Positions 20,488-25,071 of a stretch of DNA of 38,143 nucleotides are shown here, one piece after another. The first letter of the stretch is position 1, and the number at the start of each line of letters is the position of its first letter. The notes below the pieces were generated by a model. The model ran no database searches, was not told where the DNA came from, and worked only from the letters and a program-made list of their open reading frames with translations. The position numbers and the translations under genes were made by a program. The stretch lies in the NCBI GenBank assembly GCA_009840595.1, contig VXNK01000120.1, positions 1-38,143 of the forward strand. Direction: 5' to 3'. The stretch is from Rhodospirillaceae bacterium. GTDB lineage: Bacteria > Pseudomonadota > Alphaproteobacteria > Bin65.

Positions 20488-20907
20488 CTACGCTATCCAC
20501 GGATCGACGGTCTTCAATCCCGCCGCCTCGAACGGCGCGGTGTCTCGCGTCGCCACCATCATGCCATTGGCTGCGGCGGTCGCCGCAATGTAACCGTCAG
20601 ACACTGGGATCGTCCGTCCCTCGGACCGCGCTTTCGCCATCAGCGCCGCATAAGCCTGCGAAGCCGGCAGATCGAATGCCAATACCCGCCCTGCGAACAT
20701 CGGCAGGATCTGTCGCTCCAAATCCTCGTGCAGCCGGTCCCGGCGGCGGCCGGCCGGCAGCGACTGCACCCCGAAGCGGAGCTCAGCGACAGTAATCGCG
20801 GACAGGTACAGCGTTTCCAGCGCCTGGGCGTCGAGCCATGCGGAGACGCGGGGCTCCGGAGCCCCGCGCAGCGGCTCCGACACCACGTTGGTGTCTACCA
20901 GAATCAT
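20488..20907 (-). CDS. PIN-domain ribonuclease toxin (FitB/VapC family)
   Basis: A 139-residue PIN-domain protein. The acidic metal-binding residues are all present: Asp5 (ILVDTNVVSE), Glu42 (SAITVAELRFG), Asp104 (PVSDGYIAATA) and Asp122 (ATRDTAPFEAAG). The order and the LPAGRRRDRL loop match the FitB branch of VapC-type toxins, which cleave RNA. The ATG overlaps the stop of the upstream antitoxin gene by 4 bases, the usual antitoxin-first arrangement. It looks intact and probably functional. Its specific RNA target cannot be inferred. Confidence 0.93.
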   Translation of the reverse strand: MILVDTNVVSEPLRGAPEPRVSAWLDAQALETLYLSAITVAELRFGVQSLPAGRRRDRLHEDLERQILPMFAGRVLAFDLPASQAYAALMAKARSEGRTIPVSDGYIAATAAANGMMVATRDTAPFEAAGLKTVDPWIA

Positions 20908-21155
20908 TCCAGATTGATCGGCCGGGCCGGAGCGGTCTCGCGCTGGGAGAAGCCCGCGAACTCCTCGTCCGTCAGCCCGGCGCGCCGGCCGACAGCGGTC
21001 AGCAGCGTCCCCAGCGCGGCCCGCCCTTCCGGCAGGACCGTTTCCGCCAGGATGGCGCGCACCTCCGCCTCGGTGCTGCGGCCCCTCAAGGCCGCACGCA
21101 CGCGCAAAGCGCGGTGCACCTCGTCGGACAGGTTGCGCACGGTCAGCATGGCCAT
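20904..21155 (-). CDS. ribbon-helix-helix antitoxin (FitA/VapB-like)
   Basis: An 83-residue FitA-type antitoxin. The RHH DNA-binding domain is N-terminal (MLTVRNLSDEVHRALRVRAA, then LRGRSTEAEVRAIL), and the C-terminal tail would wrap the toxin. The start is taken as the ATG at 21155, giving MAMLTVRNL; the ATG two codons later would also fit, while the ATG at 21197 lies within the operator and is unlikely. It is co-transcribed with the PIN toxin. The inverted repeats just upstream are likely its own operator. Confidence 0.9.
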   Translation of the reverse strand: MAMLTVRNLSDEVHRALRVRAALRGRSTEAEVRAILAETVLPEGRAALGTLLTAVGRRAGLTDEEFAGFSQRETAPARPINLE

Positions 21156-21183
21156 TGTCGATGATCCAATGTGCCTTCGATGC

Positions 21184-21216
21184 ATGCAATCTATCAATAT
21201 GATTGCATCAATGCAA
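21184..21216. promoter_or_regulatory. compound inverted-repeat operator of the fitAB-like pair
   Basis: ATGCAATC at 21184-21191 and GATTGCAT at 21201-21208 form a perfect eight-base inverted repeat with nine bases between. A second inverted repeat, TTGCAT-CA-ATGCAA, overlaps at 21203-21216, and TGCATGCA at 21181-21188 is itself palindromic. Nested half-sites of TGCAAT type are what an RHH antitoxin dimer or toxin-antitoxin hetero-octamer would bind for autoregulation. AT-rich against a GC-rich background, so chance is less likely. Confidence 0.65.
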
Positions 21217-22344: not shown

Positions 22345-22394
22345 AAAGCGTCAAACATTAACTCATTTCAGCAATACAAACTAAAAAGTGAAAT

Positions 22395-22410
22395 ACGAAA
22401 GATTTTTCGT
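22395..22410 (-). terminator. possible hairpin at the end of the toxin-antitoxin operon
   Basis: ACGAAA-GATT-TTTCGT gives a six-base stem and four-base loop overlapping the stop codon of the 152-residue gene. A T-rich stretch (CACTTTTTAG on the minus strand) follows about ten bases later. Weak, since the stem is short and overlaps coding sequence. Confidence 0.3.
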
Positions 22411-22868
22411 CAAGCCGCTGCCTCAATTTCCGCTAAATCCTTGGTGAAGTCAAACACCATTTGTAGCGGTTCAATACTGGGGTGGCGTTCATTGTAGCTG
22501 TCTACATCCATCTTTAGCTGTTTGCAATCGCCCACAATTTGCTGCCTGCGCTGCTGAAATGACAGTTTCATGTGCGCACGAGACGCCGTACGCAAATCGT
22601 CCCATAGCACCAATTGTTTTCCGTTTCTTTGCACAGTCGCAGAATGCTTCACTCGGACTCGCCTGCCTCGCGAATCAGTCATATACTCTTCACGCATAGC
22701 GCGAGAAATATCTTCGGCGCATTTGGATATTGCGGCTGAAGGGTGCAATTCCCAAAGATTGTTCCGTATTGCCCAAGCCGCAATATCTTTTGATCGCGCC
22801 GGCCATTCCTCGCCAGAGAGACGATACTGATTGACGATCTTCTGCATTTGTTTAGTGTAAGCCGTCAC
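22410..22868 (-). CDS. uncharacterised 152-residue third gene of the HigB/HigA-ImmA operon
   Basis: Not recognised as a named domain. The GTG start at 22868 is supported by a strong TTAGGAGG Shine-Dalgarno that overlaps the stop codon of the preceding gene, so the two are translationally coupled. The N-terminal half (SKDIAAWAIRNNLW) could be a small helical DNA- or protein-binding region. A basic stretch, TDSRGRRVRVKHS, follows at residues 64-76, then LVLWDDLRTASRAHMKLSFQ and QQRRQQIVGDCKQLKMDVDS. The acidic end reads MVFDFTKDLAEIEAAA. No membrane segment, no signal peptide. I recall similar proteins next to HTH-ImmA antitoxins in other bacteria, but cannot confirm this here. It may be an accessory regulator or third partner of the toxin system. 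Confidence 0.82.
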   Translation of the reverse strand: MTAYTKQMQKIVNQYRLSGEEWPARSKDIAAWAIRNNLWELHPSAAISKCAEDISRAMREEYMTDSRGRRVRVKHSATVQRNGKQLVLWDDLRTASRAHMKLSFQQRRQQIVGDCKQLKMDVDSYNERHPSIEPLQMVFDFTKDLAEIEAAA

Positions 22869-22877
22869 TGTTGCCTC

Positions 22878-23999
22878 CTAAACCTCAATAGGTGTTGAGT
22901 AACCATACCCGTCTGTTAATGCAGTCGCGGTTACTGCGTGTCGAATTTTGACCTGGAACTTCTTGAATAAATCCCATCGGCCCGTCTTTTTTTGCAATTG
23001 CCCTGCTACGATACCCGGATGGCGTTCCACTATCCGAGAAAATCCAATCAGGCGTTCCGTAGAAAATATGGGATCCAGACGGTCAATAAAGTCATCAATC
23101 TCGGCCTGTGGGACACAAAATTCCGCAGCAGCTTCATTCGCTAACTGCTCAGAAAGCGGTAGTTCGTGCGATTCCGATAAATCGTCTGGTTCGTCGATAA
23201 TAATTCCAGCTTTCCCATCTTCATTCAAAACGTGCTCCAACTCATGGCGCAAATTGAACCAGAAATTATCAATACGATCAAAACGCATAGTTAAACCAAT
23301 CACTGGATTCTGATCGTCAATCCAAAAGCAAACCCCTTCAATCTTCGAACCTGGGACCGGTTCGACAACCAAGAACCTTACTCCAGCATTTGCTAAAATT
23401 TTGGAAACATGCCGCGCTTCCTCGGGATCGGTCAATCGAGCTTCAAGTTCCGTTAACGCCAAACGTAGATTCTTTTTTGAGAAATTCTGTACACTCAGGG
23501 CATTAGCCAGTTGTCGAACACGGAAAACCCATGCCCACTGTATTTGAGACATTCGGTTTGCTTCGCTGCGACGAGCTGCGTGAGAAAACACTATTTCATC
23601 TTCAATCGAACTCAATTGAAAAAATCGTAGTATGCGAGTTTCCAAAACTTCTACGTTTTCTGACGCTTCAATCCAGCCTCTCTTTATCATTTCGCGAACG
23701 GGAAACTTGTCTCTGAGTGCCGCAGCCCTCGCAATCACTTCGGAAGCAGGCATCGTCTTGGATAACTGATAGGAACTTTCCAAGTTTAGCCAATAATGAG
23801 GGCTCGTACCGAGGGCAGCAGAAAATTCCTTTGCTGTTTCAGGGGTAATACCACGTTTGCCAGCGATTATTTCATTTACGAGCCGCGCAGGTCGCCCGAT
23901 AATTTCGGCAAACTCAAGTTGAGTCCATTCCCGCGCCTGCAATTCGTCGCGCAAAAAATCGCCGGGAGGGAATACCTCTGCGGGAATTCTGTCAGTCAT
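22878..23999 (-). CDS. higA: HigA-type HTH antitoxin fused to ImmA/IrrE metallopeptidase domain
   Basis: A 373-residue two-domain protein. Residues about 8-75 form an XRE/HigA helix-turn-helix (FPPGDFLRDELQAREWTQLE, then IIGRPARLVNEIIAGKRGIT). Residues about 195-300 are an ImmA/IrrE-type zinc peptidase with HELEH at 252-256 and a likely third ligand, Glu289, in ANEAAAEFCVP. Single-domain HigA is about 100 residues, so the peptidase fusion is the extended form. It follows higB by 16 bases and has a GGGAGGA Shine-Dalgarno before the ATG at 23999. By analogy with ImmA, the peptidase could cleave the repressor part or another regulator on a stress signal; in this protein that is inference. Intact frame. 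Confidence 0.9.
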   Translation of the reverse strand: MTDRIPAEVFPPGDFLRDELQAREWTQLEFAEIIGRPARLVNEIIAGKRGITPETAKEFSAALGTSPHYWLNLESSYQLSKTMPASEVIARAAALRDKFPVREMIKRGWIEASENVEVLETRILRFFQLSSIEDEIVFSHAARRSEANRMSQIQWAWVFRVRQLANALSVQNFSKKNLRLALTELEARLTDPEEARHVSKILANAGVRFLVVEPVPGSKIEGVCFWIDDQNPVIGLTMRFDRIDNFWFNLRHELEHVLNEDGKAGIIIDEPDDLSESHELPLSEQLANEAAAEFCVPQAEIDDFIDRLDPIFSTERLIGFSRIVERHPGIVAGQLQKKTGRWDLFKKFQVKIRHAVTATALTDGYGYSTPIEV

Positions 24000-24015
24000 G
24001 TTTTCCTCCCTTCAT

Positions 24016-24312
24016 TTAGTGGTAGTCTACTATCTCAATGACATGTACCTTTTTATTGTTACCCTTTCCTTCGAATCTCACGATCAAGCGGTACTTGTCA
24101 TTGCAACGGAGTGAATGTTGGCCCTGTCGATTCCCAACTAATTTTTCCAACCGTAGTCCACGAGAGGCGTAGATATCCCTTTCATCCACGGCAGCCCGGA
24201 TTGCCTGCATAGCCTTTCGGAAGCCCTTCACGACGCCGGGTTGAAAGCCAGCGTCGAATCGAGGGTCGACTTCCAGGCGGTCGAGATCGTCATCTTCAAA
24301 CTCGACATCCAT
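24016..24312 (-). CDS. higB: HigB-like RelE-family toxin
   Basis: A 98-residue HigB/RelE-fold protein, a ribosome-dependent mRNA endonuclease family. Its C-terminal half is the family core: LRLEKLVGNRQGQHSLRCND, KYRLIVRF and VHVIEIVDYH, where the LKG-R-G-W-S-R-N-YR-F pattern and the final DYH are typical. The N-terminal 20 residues are unusually acidic (EFEDDDLDRLEVD). It is the first gene of the operon (toxin first, as in other higBA loci). No good Shine-Dalgarno precedes the ATG at 24312, and the likely promoter is very close, so translation may be leaderless. Intact. Confidence 0.9.
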   Translation of the reverse strand: MDVEFEDDDLDRLEVDPRFDAGFQPGVVKGFRKAMQAIRAAVDERDIYASRGLRLEKLVGNRQGQHSLRCNDKYRLIVRFEGKGNNKKVHVIEIVDYH

Positions 24313-24323
24313 CGTGAGCCTAG

Positions 24324-24376
24324 CATATATTGCTTATTTTGAATTGTGTCAATTACATTTTTACACTTGTTGTAAA
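24324..24376 (-). promoter_or_regulatory. higB promoter with overlapping inverted repeats
   Basis: On the minus strand TTGACA (24352-24347) and TATATG (24329-24324) are separated by 17 bases, a near-consensus housekeeping promoter. The start of transcription would fall about 5 bases before the higB ATG. AATTG-TGT-CAATT (24342-24354) overlaps the -35 hexamer, and TTTACA-N5-TGTAAA (24360-24376) lies just upstream. These are candidate HigA operators placed to block polymerase. Confidence 0.65.
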
Positions 24377-24441
24377 TTTAGGAATATAGACAAATCGCCG
24401 CATTGGGGGTTGAACACCGTGAGACAGCCGTCTCGAAGGCC

Positions 24442-25071
24442 TCAGCTGCCGGGCCGGGCAATATAGAAGCGCAGGAAGGCCTTCGCCTGCGGCGAATCCC
24501 ACGCGGCGGGACCGAGCAGGTAGCCGACGATCCTGTGCTTGCGGTCGAGCAGGAAGGTCGCCGGCAGGCCGCTGACGCCGAGGCGCCGGGCCGTCTTCCA
24601 GCGCGAATCGAGCAGGATCGGCAGGTGCCTGTAGCCCTGCTCCTCCCAGAACGGCCCGACCGCCGCCATGCCCTTGCGGTCGAGCGAGACGGTGAGCACG
24701 GCGAAGCCCGCCCCGCCCAGCGCCGCCTGCAGCCGGTCGAGCGTCGGCATTTCGTGGATGCAGGGCGCGCACCAGGTCGCCCAGAAATTGACCAGCAGAA
24801 CCTTGCCCCTGTAGCGCTCCATGGTGACCGGCCGGCCCTCCGCGTCGGCGAACGGGCCGAACTGTACGGCGCGCGGCTTCTTCATAAAGACGAAGGGCCG
24901 CGCCGTGCCGTTGAAGGGCGGCGGTTCGGCAGACGCCTTGGCGGCGCGCTTCGGCCCCGGCGCCGCGTCGGCGGCCGATAGCGGAACGGCGGCGGCGAGG
25001 GCCAGCAGGGCGGCGGCCAGAAGCCCGATCATCCGCGCTCCGAAAATCCGTTCCGTTGTCCGTTTCCGCAT
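24442..25071 (-). CDS. TlpA/ResA-like thiol-disulfide oxidoreductase
   Basis: A 209-residue exported thioredoxin-like protein. An N-terminal signal or anchor segment (MIGLLAAALLALAAAVPLSA, residues 14-33) is followed by the thioredoxin fold with active site WCAPC at 100-104 (VNFWATWCAPCIHEMPTLDR) and the cis-proline region VSGLPATFLLDR. This is the TlpA/ResA type, which reduces disulfides in the periplasm, often for cytochrome c or oxidase maturation. The ATG at 25071 or the one at 25032 could be the start; the latter begins right at the signal peptide. Divergent from argH with an 18-base spacer if 25071 is used. Confidence 0.92.
   Translation of the reverse strand: MRKRTTERIFGARMIGLLAAALLALAAAVPLSAADAAPGPKRAAKASAEPPPFNGTARPFVFMKKPRAVQFGPFADAEGRPVTMERYRGKVLLVNFWATWCAPCIHEMPTLDRLQAALGGAGFAVLTVSLDRKGMAAVGPFWEEQGYRHLPILLDSRWKTARRLGVSGLPATFLLDRKHRIVGYLLGPAAWDSPQAKAFLRFYIARPGS

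Follow-up and report, generated by a model that had tools for sequence, protein, structure and literature searches.

Why should an operon that already holds a toxin and an antitoxin carry a third gene? The question is raised by the window analyzed here, the whole 38,143-nucleotide contig VXNK01000120.1 of a Rhodospirillaceae bacterium, in which three tightly coupled minus-strand open reading frames (ORFs) of 98, 373, and 152 amino acids (aa) form one operon. Gene 1 resembles a HigB/GraT-type toxin, gene 2 resembles a HigA antitoxin fused to an M78 (ImmA/IrrE) peptidase domain (here HigA-M78), and gene 3 encodes a protein to which no family could be assigned (the third protein). An earlier note on the window, made from the letters alone, proposed that the trio is a three-component module and, because its third part could be given no function, the best candidate for an undescribed system. 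We find that the third gene is a regular neighbor of HigA-M78 across phyla. With slightly less than even confidence, we read the operon as a three-component toxin switch similar to PD-lambda-2, gated by its peptidase and equipped with a third subunit of its own that would act as a licensing or sensing part, a mechanism that we infer.

Pairing of the third gene with HigA-M78

Searches seeded with the third protein and its relatives alone recovered third-protein loci in 80 genome_contigs entries (the best 80 of 98 relatives), 17 viral contigs, 3 plasmid records, 1 phage, and 3 further genomes among 398 from the Pseudomonadota. A HigA-M78 gene lies directly upstream of the third gene on the same strand in 102 of these 104 loci (genome_contigs 79/80, viral contigs 16/17, plasmids 3/3, phage 1/1, further genomes 3/3), and the two exceptions, L078 and L122, start at a contig end. 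The earlier note had reasoned that homologs lying mostly away from genes for helix-turn-helix (HTH)-ImmA proteins would speak against a genuine three-component module; the homologs lie beside such genes, and the module is upheld. The gap between genes 2 and 3 is mostly 9 to 20 bp in the relatives. HigB adjoins HigA-M78 in 92 of the 102 loci (73/79, 15/16, 1/3, 1/1, and 2/3 in the same order of sources). Among the ten HigB-less loci, four are cut by a contig end (L038, L049, L058, L113), five have a divergent transposase gene in the place of HigB (L002, L003, L089, L109, L138), and L134 is unexplained; divergent HigB genes may have been missed because the HigB profile was made from four sequences. 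The 80 genome_contigs loci are hosted by Pseudomonadota (55), Planctomycetota (6), Nitrospirota (6), Chloroflexota (4), and others (9), and the gene trio thus recurs across phyla. Locus counts are not all independent: L022 and L136 coincide, and the pairs L051/L119, L117/L235, and L102/L221 seem to do the same. Conservation was counted over distinct sequences, leaving out L005 (degraded third gene), the window-genome copies, truncated genes, and identical sequences.

The pairing is matched by a C-terminal tail on HigA-M78. The motif DG[WYF]G occurs within the last 40 residues of 99/99 distinct HigA-M78 proteins with a third gene and of 0/27 without one. Converse tests approached the pairing from HigA-M78. 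Among the 398 Pseudomonadota genomes, HigA-M78 was matched in 31 at E ≤ 1e-20; in four of these, one being the genome of the window, the match is below 1e-100, and exactly these four have the third protein. In 357 genomes of the class, 14 had a match (E ≤ 1e-30): the third gene is present in each of the 7 tail-bearing ones, again including the window's own, and absent from each of the 7 tail-less ones. Only H1 to H4 among the 30 plasmid matches listed align as far as residue 366, and all four have a third gene, one of them degraded. Pairwise distances of the third protein and HigA-M78 were strongly correlated over 28 transposon-borne loci (r = 0.871, 0/1,000 permutations). Transposase distances at the same loci gave r = 0.485 (0/1,000) with HigA-M78 and r = 0.388 (4/1,000) with the third protein. 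Judged by sequence, tail and third gene mark one clade with a shared history, and contact between them would be a further step.

Two sets of loci have HigA-M78 without an intact third gene. On Thauera plasmid NZ_CP023440.1, the third gene is in fragments (L005:5121-5467), while HigB and the tail-bearing HigA-M78 look intact, so that here the third component has been lost in nature. Another group of HigA-M78 genes (L143 to L156 and L274 to L277) mostly has HEAGH or HEAAH and no DG[W/Y]G tail, and the third gene was not found within about 1.5 kb; this group may be a two-gene form.

The three proteins and their island

The features of the window operon and its site are as follows.

24016..24312, minus strand: gene 1, predicted HigB/GraT-type toxin, 98 aa (PF05015, 6f8s_B match, conserved residues)
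22878..23999, minus strand: gene 2, predicted HigA HTH plus M78 (ImmA/IrrE) peptidase fusion, 373 aa (TIGR02607, PF06114, PD-Lambda-2_B)
23232..23246, minus strand: HELEH zinc motif, gene 2 residues 252 to 256 (H252, E253, and H256 in 99/99)
23148..23150, minus strand: E284 of gene 2, likely third zinc ligand (99/99; role as in M78 peptidases)
22902..22913, minus strand: DGYG tail motif, gene 2 residues 363 to 366 (only in HigA-M78 with a third gene)
22410..22868, minus strand: gene 3, third protein, 152 aa, GTG start, no family assigned (ORF, relatives, confident model)
22874..22879, minus strand: Shine-Dalgarno AGGAGG of gene 3, overlapping the gene 2 TAG stop at 22878-22880 (sequence)
24361..24375, no strand: operator-like palindrome TTACA-N5-TGTAA (recurs at the same place in relatives)
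24324..24352, minus strand: promoter-like TTGACA, 17 nt, TATATG (seen in the sequence)
22345..24441, no strand: acquired AT-rich island flanked by a maoC-like and a tlpA-like gene (GC content; module absent from the site in relatives)

Gene 1 scores 39.3 bits (E = 9e-10) against Pfam PF05015, whose cutoff is 27. A sequence search of the PDB gave one chain only at E ≤ 0.01, 6f8s_B of the GraTA complex (2e-08), with which gene 1 has a C-terminal EIVDYH in common. Residues K57, R69, R75, D96, and H98 are kept in 75 to 83 of 85 relatives, and gene 1 is classed by these matches as a HigB/GraT-type toxin of the RelE superfamily. In Achromobacter phage CF418P1 (L004:2559-2846), HigB ends in DTVH instead of the DYH of the window protein; the catalytic end of the phage protein may be altered, since DTVH replaces DYH.

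Gene 2 reaches 47.7 bits against TIGR02607 HigA, exactly its cutoff, and 24.2 bits against PF06114 Peptidase_M78 (cutoff 22). Its model has a predicted local distance difference test (pLDDT) score of 91.4, and model residues 4 to 100 match Proteus vulgaris HigA (Z = 15.0, root mean square deviation [rmsd] 2.4, 94 aligned residues). H252, E253, H256, D269, and E284 are invariant in 99/99 distinct relatives, as are tail residues D363, G364, and G366. By comparison with M78 peptidases, E284 is the likely third zinc ligand. With an HExxH motif and a downstream Glu ligand, gene 2 has the makeup expected of a predicted M78/ImmA-IrrE peptidase.

The third protein had no useful family match in Pfam, NCBIfam, PADLOC, or PHROGs, and a profile of 80 relatives found no PDB chain at E ≤ 10, so that the profile search proposed in the earlier note returned no convincing family or structure. 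Several of its residues, R59, G68, R72, W89, D114, L118, and D144, are invariant in 96/96 relatives, and H75 is conserved as well. Its AlphaFold model (pLDDT 95.4, predicted template modeling score 0.78) has helices at 2-17, 26-35, and 43-59, four strands in 62-91, a long helix at 97-128, and a final helix. The best PDB match of the model had E = 1.1 with Foldseek and Z = 3.3 over 56 residues with VIA-align, which is too weak to use, and BFVD gave one weak match, A0A220NS53 (E = 0.012, probability 0.98, template modeling score 0.42, rmsd 11.8). On the model, the third protein has no usable fold match, and a new fold is not thereby proven. Subthreshold matches to zf-SAP30, KaiC, CARF-HEPN, release factor 2, GCN5L1, SEA, and PHROG 21574 were judged to be chance because they are weak, partial, and different between members. 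A relationship to PD-lambda-2_C/Beta was ruled out (no PADLOC match at E ≤ 1; hhalign probability 0.2), as was SecB by sequence (hhalign probability 0.1 against five SecB proteins); of the 29 Pfam families matched by 80 members, the 25 that are listed do not include SecB. No printed description of the third protein was found in a literature search that left most subscription journals and bioRxiv outside its range.

The genes are separated by 16 bp (genes 1 and 2) and 9 bp (genes 2 and 3), and the 2.1-kb island (GC counted over 22345-24442) has a GC content of 46.6% versus 70.0% in the rest of the window. These observations agree with what the earlier note had read from the letters: three coupled genes in an AT-rich island, a HigA-type HTH joined to a zinc peptidase with HELEH and a likely third ligand, and a third gene whose Shine-Dalgarno sequence overlaps the stop of the second. 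In five genomes of the same genus (L170 to L173 and L175), maoC and tlpA are separated by roughly 55 to 940 bp with no module between them; in a sixth, L174, maoC was seen and tlpA was not. The module island is acquired. About 1.2 kb from it, at 20488-21197 on the minus strand, a PIN-like protein (MILVDTNVVSEP...) and the small ORF before it make up a putative VapBC/FitAB-type pair of host-like GC content.

Carriage by IS1-family transposons and operator-like palindromes

Some relatives of the module travel with a transposase. Of the 91 distinct loci that could be classified, 33 have an IS1-type (insertion sequence 1) transposase gene divergent to the module and 58, the window among them, lack it, with 5 more unknown; PF03400 was above cutoff in 3/3 transposases scanned. 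The transposase start lies 99 to 144 bp from the next module gene in 32/33. Both ends GGTAGTGKSTCAGTTTGAA (≤3 mismatches) were found in 26 of 106 loci, and in 22 of these the target is duplicated over exactly 8 bp; the right end alone was found in 12 loci, the left end alone in 2, and neither in 66. Reversed sequences, searched as a control for the end motif, gave 0 hits in 1,690,874 positions. Examples are L003:1596-4965, L055, L092, and L109, together with the L220 to L250 set. These cargo elements are about 2.2 to 4.1 kb long, with GGTAGTG...TCAGTTTGAA ends, mostly 8-bp duplications, one transposase of about 295 aa, and exchangeable toxin-antitoxin-like cargo.

A small basic protein of about 71 to 113 aa (MPKGPKGEKRPADVI...KGGKARA...; e.g., L243:7817-8056 and L003:4477-4686, both minus strand) is encoded 3' of the third gene, as judged by a profile, in 33/33 transposon loci and in 4/58 others, 3 of which keep the right end; by a strict motif it was found in 16/25 paired-end elements. 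The one such protein scanned had no Pfam family. The ORF at this place in L003 is annotated "histone H1." In L038, the nearest relative of the window (75% identity), the small basic gene is present, the right end differs at 3 positions, and the left is cut off by the contig. On the tree, transposase state requires 12 changes, compared with a shuffled mean of 27, and starred branches force 6; the transposase has therefore been gained or lost repeatedly. In the window no terminal repeat matched within 3 mismatches, and no target duplication was found at the empty site. The window genome gave no transposase match in a search without its own positive control; the same query matched 31/385 genomes of the class, three of them of the window's genus. 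Because these searches were empty, the window copy is not claimed as a transposon.

Sister elements were found at 39 places, of which 37 were retrieved; 25 have paired ends, 21 of these with an exact 8-bp duplication. Five of the 37 carry HigA-M78 and the third gene, two of which appear to be loci already counted, and L230 and L240 keep the tail and third gene with no HigB found. Other cargo differs. The L243 element carries RosmerTA (RmrA, 2e-180; RmrT, 2.2e-88), L222 and L250 carry RmrA-like genes, L237 and L246 carry SocA_Panacea genes, and L225 carries P63C. On Hoeflea plasmid NZ_CP011481.1, the element L188:1555-5778 has perfect ends, the duplication GATGATTG, and an RmrA-type HTH-M78 protein (3.2e-191); the gene beside its transposase has weak similarity to PD-T4-9_A (7.7e-06). 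Several cargo proteins (e.g., in L220, L244, and L247) had no match in scans that covered ten such proteins for Pfam and ten for PADLOC.

RosmerTA is an antiphage toxin-antitoxin system with an HTH-M78 antitoxin, and PMC10440598 places ImmA domains as its antitoxins. The window differs from it: the match of gene 2 to RmrA is weak (0.0012, profile positions 163 to 220), there is no RmrT, and a third gene is present; full-length RmrA together with RmrT was found in the positive control L243 and not in the window. The nearest transposon precedents are the toxin-antitoxin pairs described from transposons of the Tn3 family (PMC7157771) and the cargo of Tn7-like transposons, in which ImmA and toxin-antitoxin genes are listed (PMC8649781); transporter insertion sequences have been defined (PMC9330008). 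Here, in contrast, the vehicle is of the IS1 family, with its own transposase, ends, and 8-bp duplications. The IS1-family carriage of relatives is new, as is a vehicle common to the window-type module and relatives of tested antiphage systems; what the shared vehicle suggests about function is guilt by association and not proof. No account of IS1-family elements with such cargo was found in a literature search that left ISfinder, TnCentral, most subscription journals, and bioRxiv outside its range.

The palindrome TTACA-N5-TGTAA (≤1 mismatch) lies about 60 bp or less upstream of higB in 44 of 57 nontransposon loci, including the window, compared with a chance expectation of about 0.2 in all 85 loci tested. 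The 28 transposon-borne loci differ: 11 have AACGC-N3-GCGTT, 1 has TTACA-N5-TGTAA, and 16 have neither. Taken alone, the window palindrome is not significant against shuffles (P = 0.175), and its significance lies only in recurrence at the same place; best-palindrome scores reached P ≤ 0.05 in 5/33 transposon-borne loci, hardly more than shuffles do, and in 34/58 others. Scans for sigma-70 promoters and terminators were at or below chance level, and the TTGACA-17 nt-TATATG element is not listed by the sigma-70 scan, whose rule demands T at the last position. By analogy with its family, HigA may repress the operon through the palindrome.

Known systems and rival readings

According to Vassallo 2022 (PMC9519451), PD-lambda-2 joins a HigB-like protein (A) to a HigA-peptidase (B), and its last gene (C) is "related to a P4 phage antitoxin"; gene B is toxic alone and A rescues, and C is dispensable for neutralization but needed for defense against lambda-vir. 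The Escherichia coli system and the window have the same order of toxin, fusion, and third gene (compare L008), and window gene 2 matches the PADLOC model PD-Lambda-2_B (9.1e-45, profile positions 62 to 393 of 402). The relationship is distant, because L008 scores 6.9e-185; the window protein lacks the first ~60 positions of the model, and the DG[W/Y]G tail is on the window side. Gene 1 matched no PADLOC family at E ≤ 1, and hence no PD-Lambda-2_A (control L008 gene 1, 4.4e-27), and gene 3 likewise had no match at E ≤ 1 (control L008 gene 3 against PD-Lambda-2_C, 9.7e-156). In PD-lambda-2 relatives, gene 1 is of the PF09907 type (L014, 5.1e-30; L008 is under the cutoff) and gene 3 is a PF14350 Beta protein of 361 to 386 aa (L008, 2.8e-67), whereas the window has a PF05015 HigB and an unrelated 152-aa protein. 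Since genes 1 and 3 match no PD-lambda-2 model, the window is PD-lambda-2-like in outline and not a member by the PADLOC models. A genome search with PDLC03983 was empty, and its controls gave no match either.

A system of three components built on Xre-COG2856 fusions and RelE or PIN toxins was predicted by Makarova in 2009 (PMC2701414); as in the window, an HTH-Zn-peptidase fusion shares an operon there with a RelE- or PIN-family toxin. Its components are toxin, repressor, and protease, and the accessible part of that paper describes no third protein of the window kind. The higBA and graTA loci have in common with the window the HigB family, the HigA DNA-binding domain, toxin-first order, and an operator-like palindrome, but they have two genes and a small antitoxin where the window has a large M78 fusion and a conserved third gene. 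The premise of the earlier note that higBA-type loci have only two genes does not survive the third gene of PD-lambda-2 (PMC9519451) and the 2009 prediction (PMC2701414), as these sources present them. Its suggestion of an undescribed system is not supported in that form: three-gene logic was known from both, and the families of genes 1 and 3 differ from those of PD-lambda-2.

In the switch that we favor, the HigA part would have two tasks: binding at the palindrome that precedes higB to repress the operon, and neutralizing HigB, an mRNA interferase. When triggered, the fused M78 peptidase would cleave or inactivate the HigA part, in cis or on a partner molecule, and the 152-aa protein would dock on the DG[W/Y]G tail and either license the cleavage step or sense the trigger. 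Phage entry, for example, could be what sets off the release of HigB; translation would stop, and infection would be aborted. We favor this switch because of the adjacency of the third gene (102/104), the presence of HigB (92/102), the converse tests, and the invariant peptidase residues; because third-protein and HigA-M78 distances correlate (r = 0.871) and the palindrome recurs (44/57); because gene 2 matches PD-Lambda-2_B and the third component of PD-lambda-2 is needed for defense and not for neutralization; and because the same transposon group carries RosmerTA and SocA_Panacea genes. Annotated neighbors were also counted in its favor, namely, type I restriction and Abi genes in L001 and Shedu in L002.

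Several points weigh on the other side. The roles of HigB and the fusion could be reversed here, because in PD-lambda-2 the fusion is toxic and the HigB-like protein rescues. The toxin is not obligatory, since HigB was not found in L002, L003, L089, L109, L138, L134, L230, and L240. The third protein has no sequence similarity to the third component of PD-lambda-2 (hhalign probability 0.2), and most loci lie outside annotated defense islands, with neighbors viewed for a few loci. The joint presence of tail and third gene is not independent evidence of contact, because it is confined to one HigA-M78 clade.

The strongest rival, because genes 2 and 3 persist without HigB beside a transposase, is that HigA-M78 and the third protein form a repressor/antirepressor pair, comparable to ImmR/ImmA of ICEBs1, that governs mobile-element genes. 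The toxin would be optional, the window copy would be a freed relic, and in transposon-borne copies a shared intergenic operator would run both the transposase and the toxin operon. We think this unlikely, although it accounts for the divergent transposase in 33/91 loci at its narrow spacing, the five loci where that gene takes the place of HigB, and HigB-less L230 and L240 with tail and third gene kept, and it has a precedent in the action of ImmA on the Xre repressor of ICEBs1 (PMC2701414). Against it, 58/91 loci, the window included, have no transposase and mostly keep all three genes, 16/28 transposon loci have neither palindrome, and the window genome gave no transposase match. It is less likely again that the locus is an ordinary addiction module, in which HigB and the HigA domain act, whereas the peptidase domain and the third gene could be dispensed with, as passengers that do no more than stabilize the locus. 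The HigB and HigA domains are typical, and higBA function is established for relatives. Against this reading, the peptidase ligands are invariant in 99/99 and several third-protein residues in 96/96, and genes 2 and 3 persist where HigB is missing.

Two further explanations give the third protein a different job. It could be a chaperone devoted to gene 2, whose product it would fold or protect by way of the C-terminal tail, as in toxin-antitoxin-chaperone (TAC) systems, so that titration of the chaperone would lead to degradation of gene 2 and release of HigB. A small third gene, the gene order, and an antitoxin extension found only with the third gene do recall the chaperone-addiction tail of TAC antitoxins (PMC9519451). 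The third protein differs in lacking SecB sequence similarity, both among the Pfam families listed for 80 members and by hhalign, and the idea is improbable; SecB and other folds absent from the VIA-align PDB rows are not thereby excluded, as those rows are weak (best Z, 3.3). Least probable of all is that the third protein is an effector enzyme with HigA-M78 as its antitoxin or activating protease: many invariant charged residues sit in a confidently predicted compact fold, but neither family nor fold matches any enzyme.

A bolder form of the favored switch may be put forward, and we regard it as doubtful. The 152-aa protein would belong to a new family, possibly with a new fold, and its recognition of the DG[W/Y]G tail would gate an antitoxin peptidase that acts on itself. 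The invariant core would then be HigA-M78 with the 152-aa protein, and HigB or, in transposons, the divergent transposase would be the attached output. IS1-family cargo transposons would be a general, unrecognized vehicle for toxin-antitoxin-peptidase defense modules of the window, RosmerTA, and Panacea types, in which the antitoxin operator would also govern transposition.

The compact third component and its specific, conserved docking candidate mean that four residues or one gene would suffice to probe peptidase activation. What triggers HTH-peptidase antitoxins in phage infection is a question for PD-lambda-2 and RosmerTA on which the third-protein family bears. Transposon carriage is a concrete route for such modules between phyla, and the transposon-borne copies suggest that a single operator may serve both the toxin and transposition.

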